DNA of 64,000 nt, from assembly GCA_031253795.1 (NCBI GenBank), contig JAIRVR010000055.1, positions 62,001 to 126,000 of the forward strand. The letters are read 5' to 3'. The notes beneath the pieces were generated by a model. That model had not been told where the DNA came from. It made no database searches and saw only the letters and a list, made by a program, of their open reading frames with translations. This DNA comes from Burkholderiaceae bacterium (GTDB taxonomy: Bacteria > Pseudomonadota > Gammaproteobacteria > Burkholderiales > Burkholderiaceae_C). Shown here one piece after another: positions 37,158-45,329 of this stretch (position 1 is the first letter of the stretch; the number at the start of each line of letters is the position of its first letter). Both the position numbers and the translations under genes were made by a program.

Positions 37158-38903
37158 ATGTCAGAACGACCGTTCGCGGCCCCGCGCCTTGCCCGTCCCA
37201 ACTCCTCCGATCAGCCTGCCGACAGGATCACGCCCTCGGGCGCCCTGGCCCTGCTGCGCCATGGCTGGAGCGCCCCGCGTTCGGCGCAATCCGTAGTCCT
37301 GCTGCTGTCGCTGTGGCTGCTGGCCACCACGAACTGGGCGCTGTGGCTGCGCCTGCCCCACCTGGAAGGCTATGACGGCAGCCTGACCGCGCTCACGCTG
37401 CGCCTGCTGCCCCTGGGGCTGGGCGGCATCCTGATGCTGCTGTCGCTGACGGCATGGCCACGCGGCATGAAGCCGCTGTGGATCGCCCTGCTGGTGGTTG
37501 CCGGCTGCGCCCAGTATTTCATGATCGCCTACGGCACGGTCATGGACAGCGGCATGGTGGGCAACATCATGCAGACCGATTGGCGCGAGAGCAGCGACCT
37601 GTTCAACCCCAAGCTGCTGGTGCAGCTGCTGCTGGTCGCCGGCCTGCCCACGGTCTGGCTGGTGCAGCTGCCCATCATCCGCCCGCGCCGCACCATGCAG
37701 ACCATGCTGCGCACCGTGGCCCTGCTGGCGGCCGCATTGCTGCTGCTCGCGATTTCGGTGTTTGCCTCCTACCGGGAGCTGGCGCCCGTGGTGCGCAACA
37801 ACCTGTGGATGCGCCACATGCTCAACCCCGTCAGCCCCGTGCTGGCCACGCTGGACGCTGCGCTCAAGCCCATTTTGCGGCCCAATCGCCCCTTTGCCAG
37901 CATCGCCGCCGGCGCCACGCTGGGCGCCACCTATGCCGCCGAGCGCAAGCCCCCGCTCTTCGTGATCGTGGTCGGAGAAACGGCGCGCGCCGCCAACTGG
38001 GGCCTGAACGGCTATGGCCGCGACACCACGCCCGAACTGGCCAGGCGCAAGGTCCTGAACTGGAGCAATGTCACGTCCTGCGGCACCAGCACGCGCGAAT
38101 CCGTGCCCTGCATGTTCTCCCACCTGGGCCGTGCGGGCTTCTACAAAAGCAAGGTGGACTACGACAACCTGGTGGACGTGCTGTACAACGCAGGCCTGGC
38201 CGTGCTGTGGCTGGACAACCAGGCCGGCTGCAAGGGCGTGTGCGAACGCATTCCCAACGCCAGCACGGCGGACCGGCTGGACACGGCGGAAGGCAAGGCC
38301 CTGTGCTCGAGCGACGGTGAATGCCTGGACGGCATCATGCTCAGCGGCCTGGACAAACGCATCGCCGCCCTGCCCGCCGATCGCCGCGAACGCGGCGTGG
38401 TCCTGGTCATGCATGAAATGGGCAGCCACGGGCCGGCCTATTACAAGCGCTCCACCCCCGAGACCAAGGTCTTCCAGCCCGAGTGCCTGACCAACGCCCT
38501 GTCCAGCTGCACGCGCGAGCAGGTGGTCAACGTCTACGACAACTCCATACGCTACAACGACCATTTCCTGTCGCAGACCATCGACTGGCTGGCCGGCCAG
38601 CAATCGCACTACCAGACGGCCATGCTCTACATGTCCGACCATGGCGAGTCCCTGGGCGAGATGGGCATCTACCTGCACGGCATGCCCTATGCCATGGCGC
38701 CCGACGAGCAAAAGCACATTCCCATGGTCGCCTGGCTGGGCAATCTGGGCGACCGCACGCGTGTGTCCGAAACCTGCCTGCGCGGCCAGCTCGACCAGCC
38801 GCTGTCGCACGACAACCTCTACCACACGACCCTGGGCCTGCTCGACGTGGTCAGCCCCACCTACCAGAAATCGCAGGATGCCTTCGCGGCCTGCCGCAGC
38901 TGA
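37158..38903 (+). CDS. eptA: Phosphoethanolamine--lipid A transferase (EptA/MCR-like sulfatase fold)
   Basis: FVIVVGETARAANWGLNGYGRDTTPELARRKVLNWSNVTSCGTSTRESVPCMFSHLGR, LDNQAGCKGVCERIP, MHEMGSHGPAYYKR, YMSDHGESLGEMGIYLHGMPYA. Confidence 0.93.
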   Translation: MSERPFAAPRLARPNSSDQPADRITPSGALALLRHGWSAPRSAQSVVLLLSLWLLATTNWALWLRLPHLEGYDGSLTALTLRLLPLGLGGILMLLSLTAWPRGMKPLWIALLVVAGCAQYFMIAYGTVMDSGMVGNIMQTDWRESSDLFNPKLLVQLLLVAGLPTVWLVQLPIIRPRRTMQTMLRTVALLAAALLLLAISVFASYRELAPVVRNNLWMRHMLNPVSPVLATLDAALKPILRPNRPFASIAAGATLGATYAAERKPPLFVIVVGETARAANWGLNGYGRDTTPELARRKVLNWSNVTSCGTSTRESVPCMFSHLGRAGFYKSKVDYDNLVDVLYNAGLAVLWLDNQAGCKGVCERIPNASTADRLDTAEGKALCSSDGECLDGIMLSGLDKRIAALPADRRERGVVLVMHEMGSHGPAYYKRSTPETKVFQPECLTNALSSCTREQVVNVYDNSIRYNDHFLSQTIDWLAGQQSHYQTAMLYMSDHGESLGEMGIYLHGMPYAMAPDEQKHIPMVAWLGNLGDRTRVSETCLRGQLDQPLSHDNLYHTTLGLLDVVSPTYQKSQDAFAACRS

Positions 38904-38925: not shown

Positions 38926-39423
38926 TCAGGGCCGTTTCCAGAAACCCTGGTGCAGGGCCAGCATCTCGTCGCGCAGGGCCGGCACCGGGCCCATGACCTG
39001 CACGGCGCGCTGGCCGCGCGCGAACACTTCGCGGCAGGGCAGGGACAGCGTGGGGTTGTCGGCATGGTCACCGGTCAGCGCCAGCAGCTCGGTCTCCTCG
39101 GCGCCGTAGAGAACCCGGCCGATGCCCGCCCAGTAGATGGTGCCCGCGCACATGGCGCAGGGCTCGAACGTGGTCACCAGGGTACAGCGGGCCAGGTAGG
39201 CGCCAGGGTAGTTGGCGGCCGCCGTGCGCGCCAGCGTGGACTCCGCGTGGTTGACGGTGTCGATATTGCCCTGCTCGGCCAGCACGGTCTCGCCATCGGG
39301 TGCCACCAGCAGCGCGCCGAAGGGGTGGCGGCCCATGGACAGGGCGCGCCCGGCCACGGCCGCGGCGCGCCGCAGCAGCAGCGCGGCCTGGTCGGGGGAC
39401 AGTGCCTGCATGGCCGACCTCAT
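38926..39423 (-). CDS. CDA-fold nucleoside/nucleobase deaminase
   Basis: HPFGALLVAPDG, NHAESTLAR, TTFEPCAMCAGTIYWAGIGRVLYGAEE (HAE...PCxxC zinc motif). Confidence 0.88.
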   Translation of the reverse strand: MRSAMQALSPDQAALLLRRAAAVAGRALSMGRHPFGALLVAPDGETVLAEQGNIDTVNHAESTLARTAAANYPGAYLARCTLVTTFEPCAMCAGTIYWAGIGRVLYGAEETELLALTGDHADNPTLSLPCREVFARGQRAVQVMGPVPALRDEMLALHQGFWKRP

Positions 39424-40187
39424 TCGCCCTGCGACCCGCGGTGCGCCCAGCCCGTGGTGCGCTTTTCGATGACGCTGAACAGCTCGTACATGGCCATGGC
39501 CATGGCGCCCACCACGATGAGGCCGGCAAAGGCCAGGCCCATCTGCATGGACGATCCCGCCGAGACCAGCAGATAGCCGATGCCCTCGTTGGCGGCCGTC
39601 ATCTCGCTGACCGTGGTGCCCACGAAGGCCAGGGTGATGGCCACCTTGAGCGAGCCGTAGAAATACGGCATGGAGCGCGGCAGGCCGACCTTGATCAGCA
39701 CGTCCCAGCGCCGCGCGCCCAGCACGCGCAGCACGTCCTCGAGCTCGGGCTCCAGCGTGGCCAGGCCCGTGGCGATGTTGACCATGATGGGGAAAAAACT
39801 GATCAGAAAGGCCGTCAGGATGGCCGGCCCCGCGCCGATGCCGAACCACACCACCAGAATGGGCACGAAGGCCGCCTTGGGCAGGGCGTTGAAGGCCGTC
39901 ATCAGCGGATAGAAGGCCGCATAGGCCAGGCGCGACGAGCCGATGAGAAAGCCCAGCAGCACGCCCACGACAATGGCCAGGCCGAAGCCTGCCATGGTCA
40001 CCCAGTAGGTGCGCCAGGCATGGGCGGCGATGATGCCGCTGAACTCGGCCAGCTGCTTGCCGATGGCCCAGGGGCTGGGAAAGATGAACTCCGAGACCTC
40101 GAAGGCCGAGCAGATGAGCTGCCACAGCAGGATGACCGCCAGCAGCAGCACCCAGGGGGCCCAGCGTTCCGCGTATTTCTTGTGCAT
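39420..40187 (-). CDS. ABC transporter permease, NitT/TauT type
   Basis: TYWVTMAGFGLAIVVGVLLGFLIGSS, FNALPKAAFVPILVVWFGIGAGPAILTAFLISFFPIMVN. Confidence 0.92.
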   Translation of the reverse strand: MHKKYAERWAPWVLLLAVILLWQLICSAFEVSEFIFPSPWAIGKQLAEFSGIIAAHAWRTYWVTMAGFGLAIVVGVLLGFLIGSSRLAYAAFYPLMTAFNALPKAAFVPILVVWFGIGAGPAILTAFLISFFPIMVNIATGLATLEPELEDVLRVLGARRWDVLIKVGLPRSMPYFYGSLKVAITLAFVGTTVSEMTAANEGIGYLLVSAGSSMQMGLAFAGLIVVGAMAMAMYELFSVIEKRTTGWAHRGSQGE

Positions 40188-40206
40188 GGGAAAGATCCGA
40201 TTCGCT

Positions 40207-41043
40207 TTACTGGTGGATGGCCGTGCCGGTCTTGCGCATGGCGCCGATATGGCCTCGCAGCTCGTGCACGATGTCGGTGAACTCGCGCGTATAGGTCAGC
40301 TCCAGGTCGCGCGGGCGCGGCAGGGTGATGTCGCGGCGCACGACGAAGCGGCCCGGGCCCTTGCTCATGACGTAGACGGTATCGGCCAGGAACACGCTTT
40401 CGCGCAGGTCGTGGGTGACCAGAATGACGTTGAAGCCCTGCTCGGCCTGCAGGTCGCGCAGCACGCACCACAGCTCCTCGCGCGTGAAGGCATCGAGCGC
40501 GCCGAAAGGCTCGTCCAGCAGCAGCATCTGGGGTTCATGGATGAGGGCGCGGCAGATGCTGGCGCGCTGCTGCATGCCGCCCGACAGCTGCCACGGGTAT
40601 TTGTCCTCGAAGCCGCCCAGGCCCACCTTCTGCAGCAGGGCACGCGCGCGGGCCTCGTATTCCTTGCGCTTGTGGCGGAACTGGGAACGGTGCGGCTCCA
40701 CGATTTCCAGCGGCAGCAGCACGTTGTCCACCGTGGTGCGCCAAGGCAGAAGCGACGGGGCCTGGAAGGCCATGCCCGAGATCTTGAGCGGGCCGGTCAC
40801 GCGCTGGCCATCGACCAGCACCCGGCCCATGGAAGGCATTTTCAGCCCCGTGGTCAGCTTCATGAAGGTGGACTTGCCGCAGCCCGAGGGGCCGACGATG
40901 GCGATGAACTCGCCGCGCCGCACCTGCAGGTCGATGGCCTCGACCGCGAAATGGTTGGCGCGCAGCAGCTCCTCGTTGTAGGCAAGCCAGACATCGCGGA
41001 ACTCGACGAAGAATTCGCCGGAATCGGAGTGGGGTTTGTTCAT
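40207..41043 (-). CDS. ABC transporter ATP-binding protein, NitT/TauT type
   Basis: GPSGCGKSTFMKLTTGL, LSGGMQQRASICRALIHEPQMLLLDEPFGALDAFTRE, VILVTHDLRESVFLADTVYVMSKGPG. Confidence 0.93.
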   Translation of the reverse strand: MNKPHSDSGEFFVEFRDVWLAYNEELLRANHFAVEAIDLQVRRGEFIAIVGPSGCGKSTFMKLTTGLKMPSMGRVLVDGQRVTGPLKISGMAFQAPSLLPWRTTVDNVLLPLEIVEPHRSQFRHKRKEYEARARALLQKVGLGGFEDKYPWQLSGGMQQRASICRALIHEPQMLLLDEPFGALDAFTREELWCVLRDLQAEQGFNVILVTHDLRESVFLADTVYVMSKGPGRFVVRRDITLPRPRDLELTYTREFTDIVHELRGHIGAMRKTGTAIHQ

Positions 41044-41098: not shown

Positions 41099-42124
41099 TC
41101 ATTTCTTGGGCAGGATGTTCAGCTCGGCCGCCGACGGCAGGAAGCTGCCGTTCCAGACCTCGGCCGGGTTGACGCGCGTCTTGGTCGCGTACACGTCCGA
41201 AACCTGGGAGGCCATCAGCGACAGGCGTGTGGGAACGACCTGGCCGAAGCCTTCGGCACGCGCATCGGCGCTGTTGACCACGGTGTCGATGGCCAGCTGC
41301 AGGCGGCGTGTCTCCAGCTGGGTGTTGACGATCCCGTCGCGCTCCTTCACGTAGGCGATGGCGGCACCCGGGTTGGCGATGACCTCCCTGGCACCCTTGG
41401 TGAAGGCCTGCAGGAAGGCCTTGATGGCTGCCGGGTTCTCCTTGATGAGCCTGGGGCTGGCGATGATGGCGTTGCCGTAGAGCTTCACGCCGTGCTCGGC
41501 ATAGGGCATGACGACCACGTCGGCGGGCTTGATGCCGCGCGCTTCCAGGTTCAGCAGCGAGGTGAAGGTAAATCCCGTGATGGCGTCCACGTCGCCGCGC
41601 ACCAGCATGGTTTCACGCAGCGGCGGGTCCATGGCCGTCCACTGCACGCCGCCGACCTGGTTGGCCTTGGCGAACAGCGGGAAGGCGCGCCGGCCCGCAT
41701 CGAACACGGGTGCGCCCAGCTTCTTGCCCGTCAGGTCCGCGGCCTTGGCGATACCGCTTTTCTTGAGCGCCATGACCGAGGCCGGCGTGTTGTTGTAGAC
41801 CATCATGATGGCCACGGGCTTGCCCGGCATGTCGGGGTTGTTGGCCTGGAACTCCATCAGCGCCGCAATGTCGGCAAAGCCCAGGTCATAGGCGCCCGAG
41901 GCCACGCGCTGCACCACGCCGCCCGAGCCGCTGCCGGCATCGATGCTCACGTCCAGGCCTGCGTCCTTGAAGTAGCCCTTGGCAGCCGGCTGCAGGAAGA
42001 AGGCGGCCGGACCCTCGAAGCGCCAGTCGAGCTGGAACTTCAGCGGCGTGGCGGCCTGGGCAGGGGCCAGGGCGGCGCTGGCGGACAAGGCCAGGACGGT
42101 GTGCAGGAACAGTCGTTTTTGCAT
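41099..42124 (-). CDS. ABC transporter substrate-binding protein, NMT1/SsuA-like
   Basis: LKFQLDWRFEGPAAFFLQPAAKGYFKDAGLDVSIDAGSGSGGVVQRVASGAYDLGFADIAALMEF. Confidence 0.9.
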   Translation of the reverse strand: MQKRLFLHTVLALSASAALAPAQAATPLKFQLDWRFEGPAAFFLQPAAKGYFKDAGLDVSIDAGSGSGGVVQRVASGAYDLGFADIAALMEFQANNPDMPGKPVAIMMVYNNTPASVMALKKSGIAKAADLTGKKLGAPVFDAGRRAFPLFAKANQVGGVQWTAMDPPLRETMLVRGDVDAITGFTFTSLLNLEARGIKPADVVVMPYAEHGVKLYGNAIIASPRLIKENPAAIKAFLQAFTKGAREVIANPGAAIAYVKERDGIVNTQLETRRLQLAIDTVVNSADARAEGFGQVVPTRLSLMASQVSDVYATKTRVNPAEVWNGSFLPSAAELNILPKK

Positions 42125-42160: not shown

Positions 42161-42673
42161 TCAGCTTTTCCAGGCGCCTTGGTGCGATGCCGAGGCCTCG
42201 GCGATCAGCGCCGGTCCTATGCACTCGATGGCGTGGGACGCGGTGTCGAACACATCGCGGCAGGACAGCTCGGCATCCTTCTGGTCCAGGCGCTCGCCGC
42301 GGAATGCGCGCAGGCGCACGGCATCGATGCCATAGACCACGCGGCCTATGGCCGACCAGAAAATGGCACCCGCGCACATCACGCAGGGCTCGGCCGAGGA
42401 GTACAGGGTGGCGCCGGCCAGGGCCTGGCGGTCATGGAGCGGGCTGGCCAGGCGGATGGCCGACAGCTCGGCATGGGCCGTGCAGTCGCCGCTTTCGCCG
42501 TTGGCGTTGCAGGCCTCGGCAATGACCTGGCCGCCCGCATCCACGATGAGGGCACCGAAGGGGCGGTTGCCACGCGCGCGGGCCCGGTCGGCCAGGGCGA
42601 TGGCACGGCGCAGGTACATGCCGTCGGGTTCGGCGAGCCGGGCCTCGGCGGGCAGGCAGACGGTGCTGTCCAT
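42161..42673 (-). CDS. CDA-fold nucleoside/nucleobase deaminase
   Basis: RPFGALIVDAGGQVIAEACN, AHAELSAIRLA, YSSAEPCVMCAGAIFWSAIGRVVYGIDA. Confidence 0.88.
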   Translation of the reverse strand: MDSTVCLPAEARLAEPDGMYLRRAIALADRARARGNRPFGALIVDAGGQVIAEACNANGESGDCTAHAELSAIRLASPLHDRQALAGATLYSSAEPCVMCAGAIFWSAIGRVVYGIDAVRLRAFRGERLDQKDAELSCRDVFDTASHAIECIGPALIAEASASHQGAWKS

Positions 42674-42683
42674 GTCCGCCTCC

Positions 42684-43700
42684 TCAGGCCTTGGCCATGC
42701 GCGCAGCCAGCGGCGGCAGCAGGCCACGATGGAACAGCGCATCGGGCGCGGGCACGGACTTGAGGTCGAAGGCATGGCCGACCTGCTCCACCTGGCGGGC
42801 CAGCAGCTGGGGATCGATATCGCCCAGGCCATGGCGGCGCGTATCGGGCGCGGCCAGGTACTGGGAGGTGATGGCCCAGCGCGCGGCCTCCAGCTTCTCG
42901 TCCAGGATGGGCTCGCGCTGGCGCACGGCCGCCACGGCCAGCGCGGGCTGGGCCAGGCATTCGACGATGGCGCGGTTGCTGGCGCGCAGAAAGGCCGCCA
43001 CCACCGCCGGCTGCTCGGCCAGCAGCGCGCTGGAGGCCAGGATGGCATTGCCGTACAGCTGCACGCCCGCATCGGTATAGCGCAGCACCGACAGCTCCTC
43101 GGGCTTGATGCGCGCGAACAGCGACACGGCCGAATCGTGGAAATAGGTGGCCGCGTCCACATCGCCGCGCACCACGACGTTGTCGCGCGCCGAGAACTCG
43201 GTGGTGGACCACGAGAACAGGTCGGCCGGCAGGTTCTGGCGCTGCGCCACCAGAGGCCAGACGCGGCGCGTGGACTCCACGGCCGCGGCCGCCACCTTCT
43301 TGCCCTTGAGACTGGCGAAGTCCGCCGTGATGCCGCGGTCCTTGCGGCCGATGATGGCGAAGGGCGCGCGGTTGTAGTACTGGTAGACGGCCTGCACGCG
43401 CGCCGCTCCCGGATTCTGTGCCTGGAACTCGATCAGGGCGCTGATGTCGCCCAGGCCCAGCTGGTACGCCCCGCTGGCCACGCGCGTGATCGATGCCACC
43501 GAGCCCGATCCCACGTCGATGGACACATCCAGTCCCTCGTCGCGGTAGTAGCCTTTTTGCAGCGCCAGAAAGAAGGGCGCGGTCTGCGAAGTCACGCGGA
43601 AGTCCAGCGTGAATTTCAGGGCGACGGGGGGCTTGCCCTGGGCCAGGGCGGCCCCGGCACAGGCGGCGGGCAGGGCGGCGAGGAAATGACGGCGTTGCAT
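42684..43700 (-). CDS. ABC transporter substrate-binding protein, NMT1/SsuA-like (paralogue of 41099-42124)
   Basis: LKFTLDFRVTSQTAPFFLALQKGYYRDEGLDVSIDVGSGSVASITRVASGAYQLGLGDISALIEF. Confidence 0.9.
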   Translation of the reverse strand: MQRRHFLAALPAACAGAALAQGKPPVALKFTLDFRVTSQTAPFFLALQKGYYRDEGLDVSIDVGSGSVASITRVASGAYQLGLGDISALIEFQAQNPGAARVQAVYQYYNRAPFAIIGRKDRGITADFASLKGKKVAAAAVESTRRVWPLVAQRQNLPADLFSWSTTEFSARDNVVVRGDVDAATYFHDSAVSLFARIKPEELSVLRYTDAGVQLYGNAILASSALLAEQPAVVAAFLRASNRAIVECLAQPALAVAAVRQREPILDEKLEAARWAITSQYLAAPDTRRHGLGDIDPQLLARQVEQVGHAFDLKSVPAPDALFHRGLLPPLAARMAKA

Positions 43701-43803
43701 GGTGGGGAACTCTCAGGCCTCGATCAAACGATGGGACCGGCCGGAGCCAGGGCCCCCGCCGATGCGACATGAGCAATTTCCGGGCAACGCGCCCGGGGGC
43801 ACG

Positions 43804-43821
43804 TGCTGAACGCTTCTACTC
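43804..43821 (-). repeat. Left arm of perfect 18-bp inverted repeat
   Basis: tgctgaacgcttctactc; reverse complement recurs at 44133-44150. Confidence 0.9.
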
Positions 43822-43849
43822 GTTGGGTCTTGTATGCAAATGGCGTACC

Positions 43850-43960: not shown

Positions 43961-44132
43961 TCGCCCAGGGCCGCGCCCGTTTCCAGCGCTCCGGCATGCA
44001 TCAGCCTGGTGCATAGCCCGCCAGATGCGGGCAAGACGCCAGGCGCTGGCGCCGAACTGCACCACGATGGAACCTGGCGGAGGGATTCAGGCCGGCGCGG
44101 GCTGGCGCGCTGTTTGCTTGGGAAGTCGGCAA

Positions 44133-44150
44133 GAGTAGAAGCGTTCAGCA
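44133..44150 (+). repeat. Right arm of perfect 18-bp inverted repeat
   Basis: gagtagaagcgttcagca. Confidence 0.9.
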
Positions 44151-44173
44151 TGCCGGCCCTGCCGGTGCGGGTC

Positions 44174-44310
44174 ATTGCTCTTGAAGCGGGTGGGAAGGTG
44201 CCTGGTGGCCCGCCCTGCCCTGTTCACCACTTCAAGAGCGATGCGCGGACCGCCCTGCCACTGGGCGTGCGGTCCGTCGCGTCCCTTGTCATGGCCGTCG
44301 CGGCCAAGGA
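44174..44310 (+). promoter_or_regulatory. Structured 5' leader (candidate riboswitch/cis-regulatory RNA) of the 2OG dioxygenase gene
   Basis: attgctcttgaag/cttcaagagcgat long stem; CGGACCGC-N15-GCGGTCCG hairpin (44246-44276); CCTT/GGCC...GGCC/AAGG hairpin covering the likely SD (44306-44310). Confidence 0.45.
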
Positions 44311-44318
44311 AACCGACC

Positions 44319-45329
44319 ATGAACACGCTTGCCAACCCCGTACTGCCATCCGGATACGCCCTGGACGAACTCGCCAAGGAGGCCCGCATGGGCGGCCAGG
44401 GGCAGGAAACACGCTCGCGCGAGGTGCGCGTCATCGACATCTCCGACTTCGAACGGCGCAAGGCCGAGATCGCCGAGGCGATCTGGCAGGCTTCGGTGGA
44501 GATCGGCTTTTTCCAGGTGTCCGGCCATGGCATCGCACAGGCCGACATCGATGCCGCCTTCGGGCGCGCCGAGCAGTTGTTCGCCCTCCCGCGCGAGGTC
44601 AAGGCCCAGTGGCCCCTGTCGCGCAATGCGGGCTGGGAACACAAGGCCCAGATACGCCCGTCCACACGCACGCCCGACCAGAAGGAGTCCTACCAGGTCA
44701 CGCGGCCGCGCATGGCCGGCCTGTGGCCTACCGAGCAGGAACTGCCGGGTTTTCAGCAAGCCACCCTGGCCTTCGAGCGCCAGTGCTGGCAGGTGGGCAT
44801 GCGCCTGCTGTCCTGCTTTGCCCACCAGCTCGGCTTTGACGCCGATTTCTTCACGCGTGCCCACGACCCCGCGGTGCCGGCCTACCAGAGCACGCTGCGC
44901 ATGCTGCACTACTTTGCGGCCGACCCCGCCCTCAAGGACGAGCTGGGCCTGTGGCGCGCGGGCGCCCATACCGACTTCGACTGCCTGACCCTGCTCTTTC
45001 AGCGCGCGGGCCAGGGTGGCCTGCAGGTGCTGCCGGGCAAGGAAATGGAAGGCCAGCAATGGACGCCCGTGGACCCCGTGCCGGGCGTCATCACCTGCAA
45101 TATCGGCGACATGCTCACCCGCTGGAGCGACGACCAGCTGCCCAGCAACTTCCACCGCGTGCGCAACCCGCTGCCCCACGAATACCAGGGTGCGCGCTAC
45201 AGCCTGGCCTTCTTCTGCCAGGCCAACGAGGACGCCGTGATCGAGGGACCGGGAAAAAAGTACCCGCCCATCACGGGCGCCGAATACCTGCGCCAGCGCA
45301 TCAGCGCCAATTTCAGCAATCGGTACTGA
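44319..45329 (+). CDS. 2-oxoglutarate/Fe(II)-dependent dioxygenase (isopenicillin N synthase-like)
   Basis: VRVIDISDFERRKAEIAEAIWQASVEIGFFQVSGHGI; HTDFDCLTLLFQ (HxD); FHRVRNPLPHEYQGARYSLAFF (H...RxS). Confidence 0.92.
   Translation: MNTLANPVLPSGYALDELAKEARMGGQGQETRSREVRVIDISDFERRKAEIAEAIWQASVEIGFFQVSGHGIAQADIDAAFGRAEQLFALPREVKAQWPLSRNAGWEHKAQIRPSTRTPDQKESYQVTRPRMAGLWPTEQELPGFQQATLAFERQCWQVGMRLLSCFAHQLGFDADFFTRAHDPAVPAYQSTLRMLHYFAADPALKDELGLWRAGAHTDFDCLTLLFQRAGQGGLQVLPGKEMEGQQWTPVDPVPGVITCNIGDMLTRWSDDQLPSNFHRVRNPLPHEYQGARYSLAFFCQANEDAVIEGPGKKYPPITGAEYLRQRISANFSNRY

Follow-up and report, generated by a model that had tools for sequence, protein, structure and literature searches.

The 2OG-Fe(II) dioxygenase gene in the window (the whole stretch of 64,000 nt analyzed here) is preceded by a leader able to form several large hairpins, which raises the question of whether this leader is a riboswitch and, if so, which way it switches. 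A preliminary description had proposed a xanthine/NMT1-motif riboswitch at 44174-44318 and had named a covariance-model search against that family as a check. This search returned a full-length match to RF03054 (E of 1e-9 for the window), with a score that bears out the proposed identity (Table 1). The proposed position was right for the platform but not for the sensor, which lies mostly upstream, at 44128-44185; 44186-44318 is the expression platform, not the sensing part. P1 is formed by CAAGAGTA (44130-44137) and TGCTCTTG (44176-44183), which pair over 8 bp, and the AGAAGCG and CATTG junction bases are present. The window aptamer has the same conserved core as the RF03054 class, GAGTAGAAGCG ... 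GGG-CATTGCTC, and this core is shared by the aligned relatives. The family match makes 44128-44185 a candidate xanthine/urate-binding aptamer; for the aptamer of S. plymuthica, the published account gives a KD for xanthine of about 3.7 µM. The source assembly, which is 59% complete, contains two RF03054 matches only, this one on the forward strand and one at 43826-43766 on the reverse strand.

Table 1. Positions of the aptamers, the platform strands, and the surrounding genes in the window
Feature	Position	Strand	Basis or remark
Xanthine (NMT1) riboswitch aptamer, RF03054	44128-44185	+	Rfam cmscan, 55.8 bits (gathering 36); model 1-56, full length
P1 3' strand plus tail (switching strand), ATTGCTCTTGAAG	44174-44186	+	Partners: P1 5' strand or 44230-44242
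Anti-P1 strand, CTTCAAGAGCGAT	44230-44242	+	13-bp complement of 44174-44186
Middle hairpin, GATGCGCGGACCGC...GCGGTCCGTCGCGTC, between anti-P1 and anti-SD	44240-44283	+	In MFE fold
Anti-SD strand (CCCTTG, 44283-44288) and SD-burying hairpin	44283-44309	+	CCTT/AAGG plus GGCC/GGCC
Shine-Dalgarno (SD), AAGGA	44306-44310	+	Sequence
2OG-Fe(II) dioxygenase (DIOX_N + 2OG-FeII_Oxy), controlled gene	44319-45329	+	Pfam, E 5.5e-20 and 3.7e-16
Second xanthine aptamer, RF03054, divergent	43766-43826	-	47 bits (gathering 36); precedes NMT1 transporter gene
NMT1/THI5-like periplasmic binding protein, behind second aptamer	42684-43700	-	Pfam NMT1, E 1.4e-30
TadA/guanine-deaminase-like deaminase, same operon as NMT1/THI5-like gene	42161-42673	-	Pfam dCMP_cyt_deam_1, E 2.1e-24
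Second NMT1-like binding protein	41099-42124	-	Pfam NMT1, E 5.9e-34
ABC transporter ATPase (40207-41043) and permease (39420-40187)	39420-41043	-	Pfam ABC_tran, BPD_transp_1
Second cytidine/guanine-deaminase-like ORF, 3' of permease	38926-39423	-	Sequence only

The xanthine riboswitch (NMT1 motif, RF03054) was described by Yu & Breaker (2020, PMC7373994), and its crystal structure has been reported (PMC8266621). The 2020 paper lists pcbC-like dioxygenase, NMT1, and tadA genes and describes a back-to-back pair in Hydrogenophaga intermedia, whose tested riboswitch was picked for its short aptamer-to-RBS distance. The window has the same genes and the same divergent double arrangement as this reporter locus; it differs in its long leader, with about 135 nt from the aptamer to the ATG and an extra strand-exchange layer. 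The gene context invoked in the preliminary description, an IPNS-like 2OG dioxygenase, an NMT1-domain transporter, and deaminases, matches the published set (PMC7373994). Because the genes and the back-to-back pair are already published, the window riboswitch adds one more example to a known class, in a setting that is known as well; the class, ligand, genes, and layout are all on record, and the direction of control is the point of interest.

The dioxygenase is an IPNS-like protein of 336 residues. Among solved structures, thymine dioxygenase (5c3p, E 6.9e-33), a nucleobase oxidase, is the one closest to it. The window enzyme is 93% identical to those of the nearest named relatives, Delftia acidovorans and D. 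tsuruhatensis, and the source bacterium is Delftia-like. We considered a start at 44388, with AAGGAGG, in place of 44319 and rejected it, since relatives have an SD, an ATG, and a conserved frame upstream of KEARMG; 44319 is therefore the preferred start. Inside the gene, 44375-44390 carries AAGGAGG and the ATG at 44388, a perfect-looking internal start that is conserved through the KEARM codons and could give a shorter protein. On the other strand, the deaminase-like ORF 3' of the permease probably closes the transporter operon, judging by its sequence. A simple scan for sigma-70 promoters between the divergent genes found none. The motif was present in 29 of 53 genomes sampled at the genus level, 56 of 300 at the family level, 18 of 398 at the order level, and 4 of 369 at the class level, these samples overlapping; the 29 genus genomes mostly had two matches, many of them close by on opposite strands. 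Elsewhere in the window, 37158-38903 (+) encodes an EptA-like phosphoethanolamine-lipid A transferase, scoring above the cutoff of NF028537 and far below those of the MCR models, and is seemingly an ordinary chromosomal gene.

All of the pairings listed in the preliminary description were found in the sequence where it had placed them. The switching strand ATTGCTCTTGAAG forms 13 pairs, one of them G-U, with CTTCAAGAGCGAT; CGGACCGC (44246-44253) pairs with GCGGTCCG (44269-44276); and CCTTGTCATGGCCGTCGCGGCCAAGG (44284-44309) makes a hairpin over most of the AAGGA, ahead of the ATG at 44319. The alternative proposed for GCGA (44238-44241), in the first stem or the second hairpin, is also real in the sequence. 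GGGTGGG and CCCGCCC could pair as an inner stem, although those bases have other partners in the MFE fold. Burial of the SD is predicted in the MFE fold of the window leader, although the direction of switching is unreadable from this leader. Because the stem between 44174-44186 and 44230-44242 uses the P1 3' strand, it is a competitor of P1, as expected of a riboswitch platform. In the ligand-free ensemble, 0.88 of 44174-44186 was paired downstream and the probability of P1 was 0.01. The downstream complement of the P1 3' strand includes an 11-bp run that exceeds those in 100 of 100 shuffles of the leader, and a word and its complement alternate along the leader (CAAGAG, CTCTTG, CAAGAG, CCCTTG, CAAGG).

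The reading that we favor, with a probability of roughly 85%, is that the leader acts on the dioxygenase gene as a translational xanthine/urate riboswitch. When bound, xanthine would hold P1 and free 44230-44242; when no ligand is present, the 13-bp competitor would win over P1. The CAAGAG word, freed or captured, would then determine which partner the anti-SD CCCTTG (44283-44288) takes, CAAGAG or the Shine-Dalgarno (CAAGG), and the ligand would alter ribosome access through strand exchange, not transcription termination. Within this explanation we lean slightly toward ligand-ON, because related short leaders pair the P1 3' strand directly with the SD.

The hairpins 3' of the aptamer are very stable and might instead end transcription, intrinsically or through Rho, under the control of the aptamer. 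This is improbable, as none of the stems downstream of the aptamer is followed by a U-tract and, according to PMC7373994, the class has almost no terminator stems. A search for a GC stem plus U-tract between the aptamer and the dioxygenase gene found none; the sole terminator-like site, at 44093-44112, is upstream of the aptamer. That the stems are incidental to a GC-rich coding or repeat region, with no regulatory leader, is hardly credible: the region is indeed GC-rich, and an in-frame ORF from TTG 44175 continues into the dioxygenase, but the Rfam match, the stability of the fold, and the conservation of anti-P1 in diverging sequence all argue against it. This stability was marked, the MFE of 44165-44330 being -84.8 kcal/mol versus -67.4 (sd 4.0) for shuffled sequences (z of -4.35), with 0 of 200 shuffles as stable. 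A coding N-terminal extension from TTG 44175 was rejected in its own right, as aptamer-to-ATG lengths in relatives (193, 190, 191, 192, 176, and 215 nt) differ by non-multiples of 3; the leader is therefore not coding.

Related leaders were taken from 139 non-redundant aptamers, 113 of which had a usable start site, with the start codons of relatives picked by rule. Across seven Delftia-type leaders, 98.8% of cells in the anti-P1 helix were paired, and since 10 of its 12 counted pairs were invariant, these leaders neither support nor contradict the pairing. The middle hairpin had two pairs changed on both sides, no more than in shuffles. RNAalifold, from which the register of the SD hairpin was taken, gave one UA/GC exchange preserved on both sides of that hairpin (columns 193:205) and one inner-stem pair that varies freely yet stays paired. 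Among the seven leaders, covariation of the platform helices did not rise above shuffles, a point against the translational riboswitch. The anti-P1 strand is conserved amid otherwise diverging leader sequence: the complement of the P1 3' strand, CTTCAAGAGC or near it, recurs at variable distance in Delftia- and Acidovorax-type dioxygenase leaders, and such a complement is kept at variable spacing in leaders of Delftia, Acidovorax, Paracidovorax, and Pigmentiphaga. For leaders longer than 90 nt, tails were more complementary to the downstream RNA of their own leader than after re-pairing with the RNA of other leaders, with a z of 7.8 (6.8 for the variable tail alone), and for leaders of 60 nt or less, complementarity of the own tail to the SD region gave a z of 3.7 (2.8 for the tail only); these are upper estimates, because leaders were treated as independent though many are related. 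CCTTG recurs between anti-P1 and the SD in most Delftia- and Acidovorax-type leaders, where its possible partners are the SD (CAAGG/CGAGG), anti-P1 (CAAGAG), or the P1 5' strand. The native P1 had a probability above 0.5 in just 7 of the 113 ligand-free ensembles, which indicates that the platform outcompetes P1.

The direction of switching was examined by forcing P1 as a proxy for the ligand-bound state and computing the ease of SD opening in the 113 leaders. In 50 leaders, forcing P1 made the SD open more readily (change below -1 kcal/mol), as against 3 in which it closed the SD (above +1). Compared to shuffled leaders at the 10% level, 51 were ON-like and 7 OFF-like, with about 11 expected of each, and with longer flanks the numbers were 41 and 11. 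For the window leader, the change in SD opening ranged from -0.76 to +0.53 kcal/mol, varying with the flanks, and no direction is claimed for it because the value is near zero and flank dependent. The folding of this leader thus gives no clear sign of SD control either way, which counts against the translational reading. The folding models thus lean toward ligand-ON for the class, contrary to the published class-wide OFF. Xanthine riboswitches may in many or most cases, and most clearly in short leaders, be translation ON switches in which the P1 3' strand is the anti-SD and ligand-stabilized P1 frees the ribosome site, a reading to which we give a little under an even chance. For the second, divergent aptamer, the P1 3' strand CTCATGTC of Delftia and Comamonas relatives can pair with GACCTGAG over a weak SD (7 of 8 positions, by eye), the probability of this SD pairing being 0.93 in two leaders (L010 and L018) and 0.12 in the window.

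The same riboswitch with its published polarity, in which xanthine turns the gene OFF, is also a serious possibility, if one that we would not quite bet on. Here, the P1 5' strand (GGCAAG, 44128-44133) would hold the anti-SD (CTTGTC/CTTGCC) in the absence of ligand and leave the SD open, and upon binding, P1 would reclaim its 5' strand and the anti-SD would close on the SD. RNAalifold on the seven Delftia-type leaders does offer a GGCAAG:CUUGCC pairing (columns 1-6 with 185-190), and in the H. intermedia reporter the ligand-blind aptamer mutant M4 was expressed above the wild type (PMC7373994). In the accessible text of Yu & Breaker 2020 (PMC7373994), the OFF polarity of the class rests on this one mutant in an E. 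coli reporter, and no in-cell ligand titration was found. The M4 reporter is nevertheless real evidence, while the ON direction derived from folding is a prediction. An explanation of the M4 result as an accidental effect of a junction mutation on SD pairing was rejected, as in silico A-to-U changes of two junction A's in 22 short leaders had mostly small, inconsistent effects. Against OFF stand the forced-P1 results, with either flank length, and the short leaders in which the SD itself is the partner of the P1 3' strand, such as L027, L007, L163, and L004, with a pairing probability of 0.96 to 1.00 in the ligand-free ensemble. If the ON reading were true, the published class-wide OFF label would be wrong or confined to some leaders. 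The NMT1 transporters and 2OG dioxygenases would then likely be inducible purine catabolism and import genes, switched on by their substrate, and not feedback-repressed producers of xanthine and urate, and the search for the substrates of these genes would change course.

In the add adenine riboswitch of V. vulnificus, the P1 3' strand is the anti-SD, and ligand-stabilized P1 frees the SD. The same logic is predicted for the short-leader xanthine relatives, although aptamer and ligand are unrelated, whereas the window leader has additional strands between P1 and the SD. The TPP riboswitch of E. coli thiM also has a strand-exchange platform upstream of the translation start, and its P1 3' strand holds the anti-SD; the window leader shares such a platform, but its P1 3' strand carries the SD-like CAAGAG instead.

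Two other groups of leaders were distinctive. In the long leaders L054, L168, L014, and L019, the P1 3' strand has as its partner an SD-like CTTCAGGAG that lies a long way 5' of the real SD, as if an insertion had displaced the SD of a short leader, which was then retained as a switch strand. Four leaders of dioxygenase genes from the gammaproteobacterium Acinetobacter (L088, L095, L100, and L101) are AT-rich and combine the same aptamer with an unrelated platform, in which a stem of the GATTGGGTCA/TGACCC type lies close to the SD; L095, L100, and L101 folded in a strongly ON-like manner.
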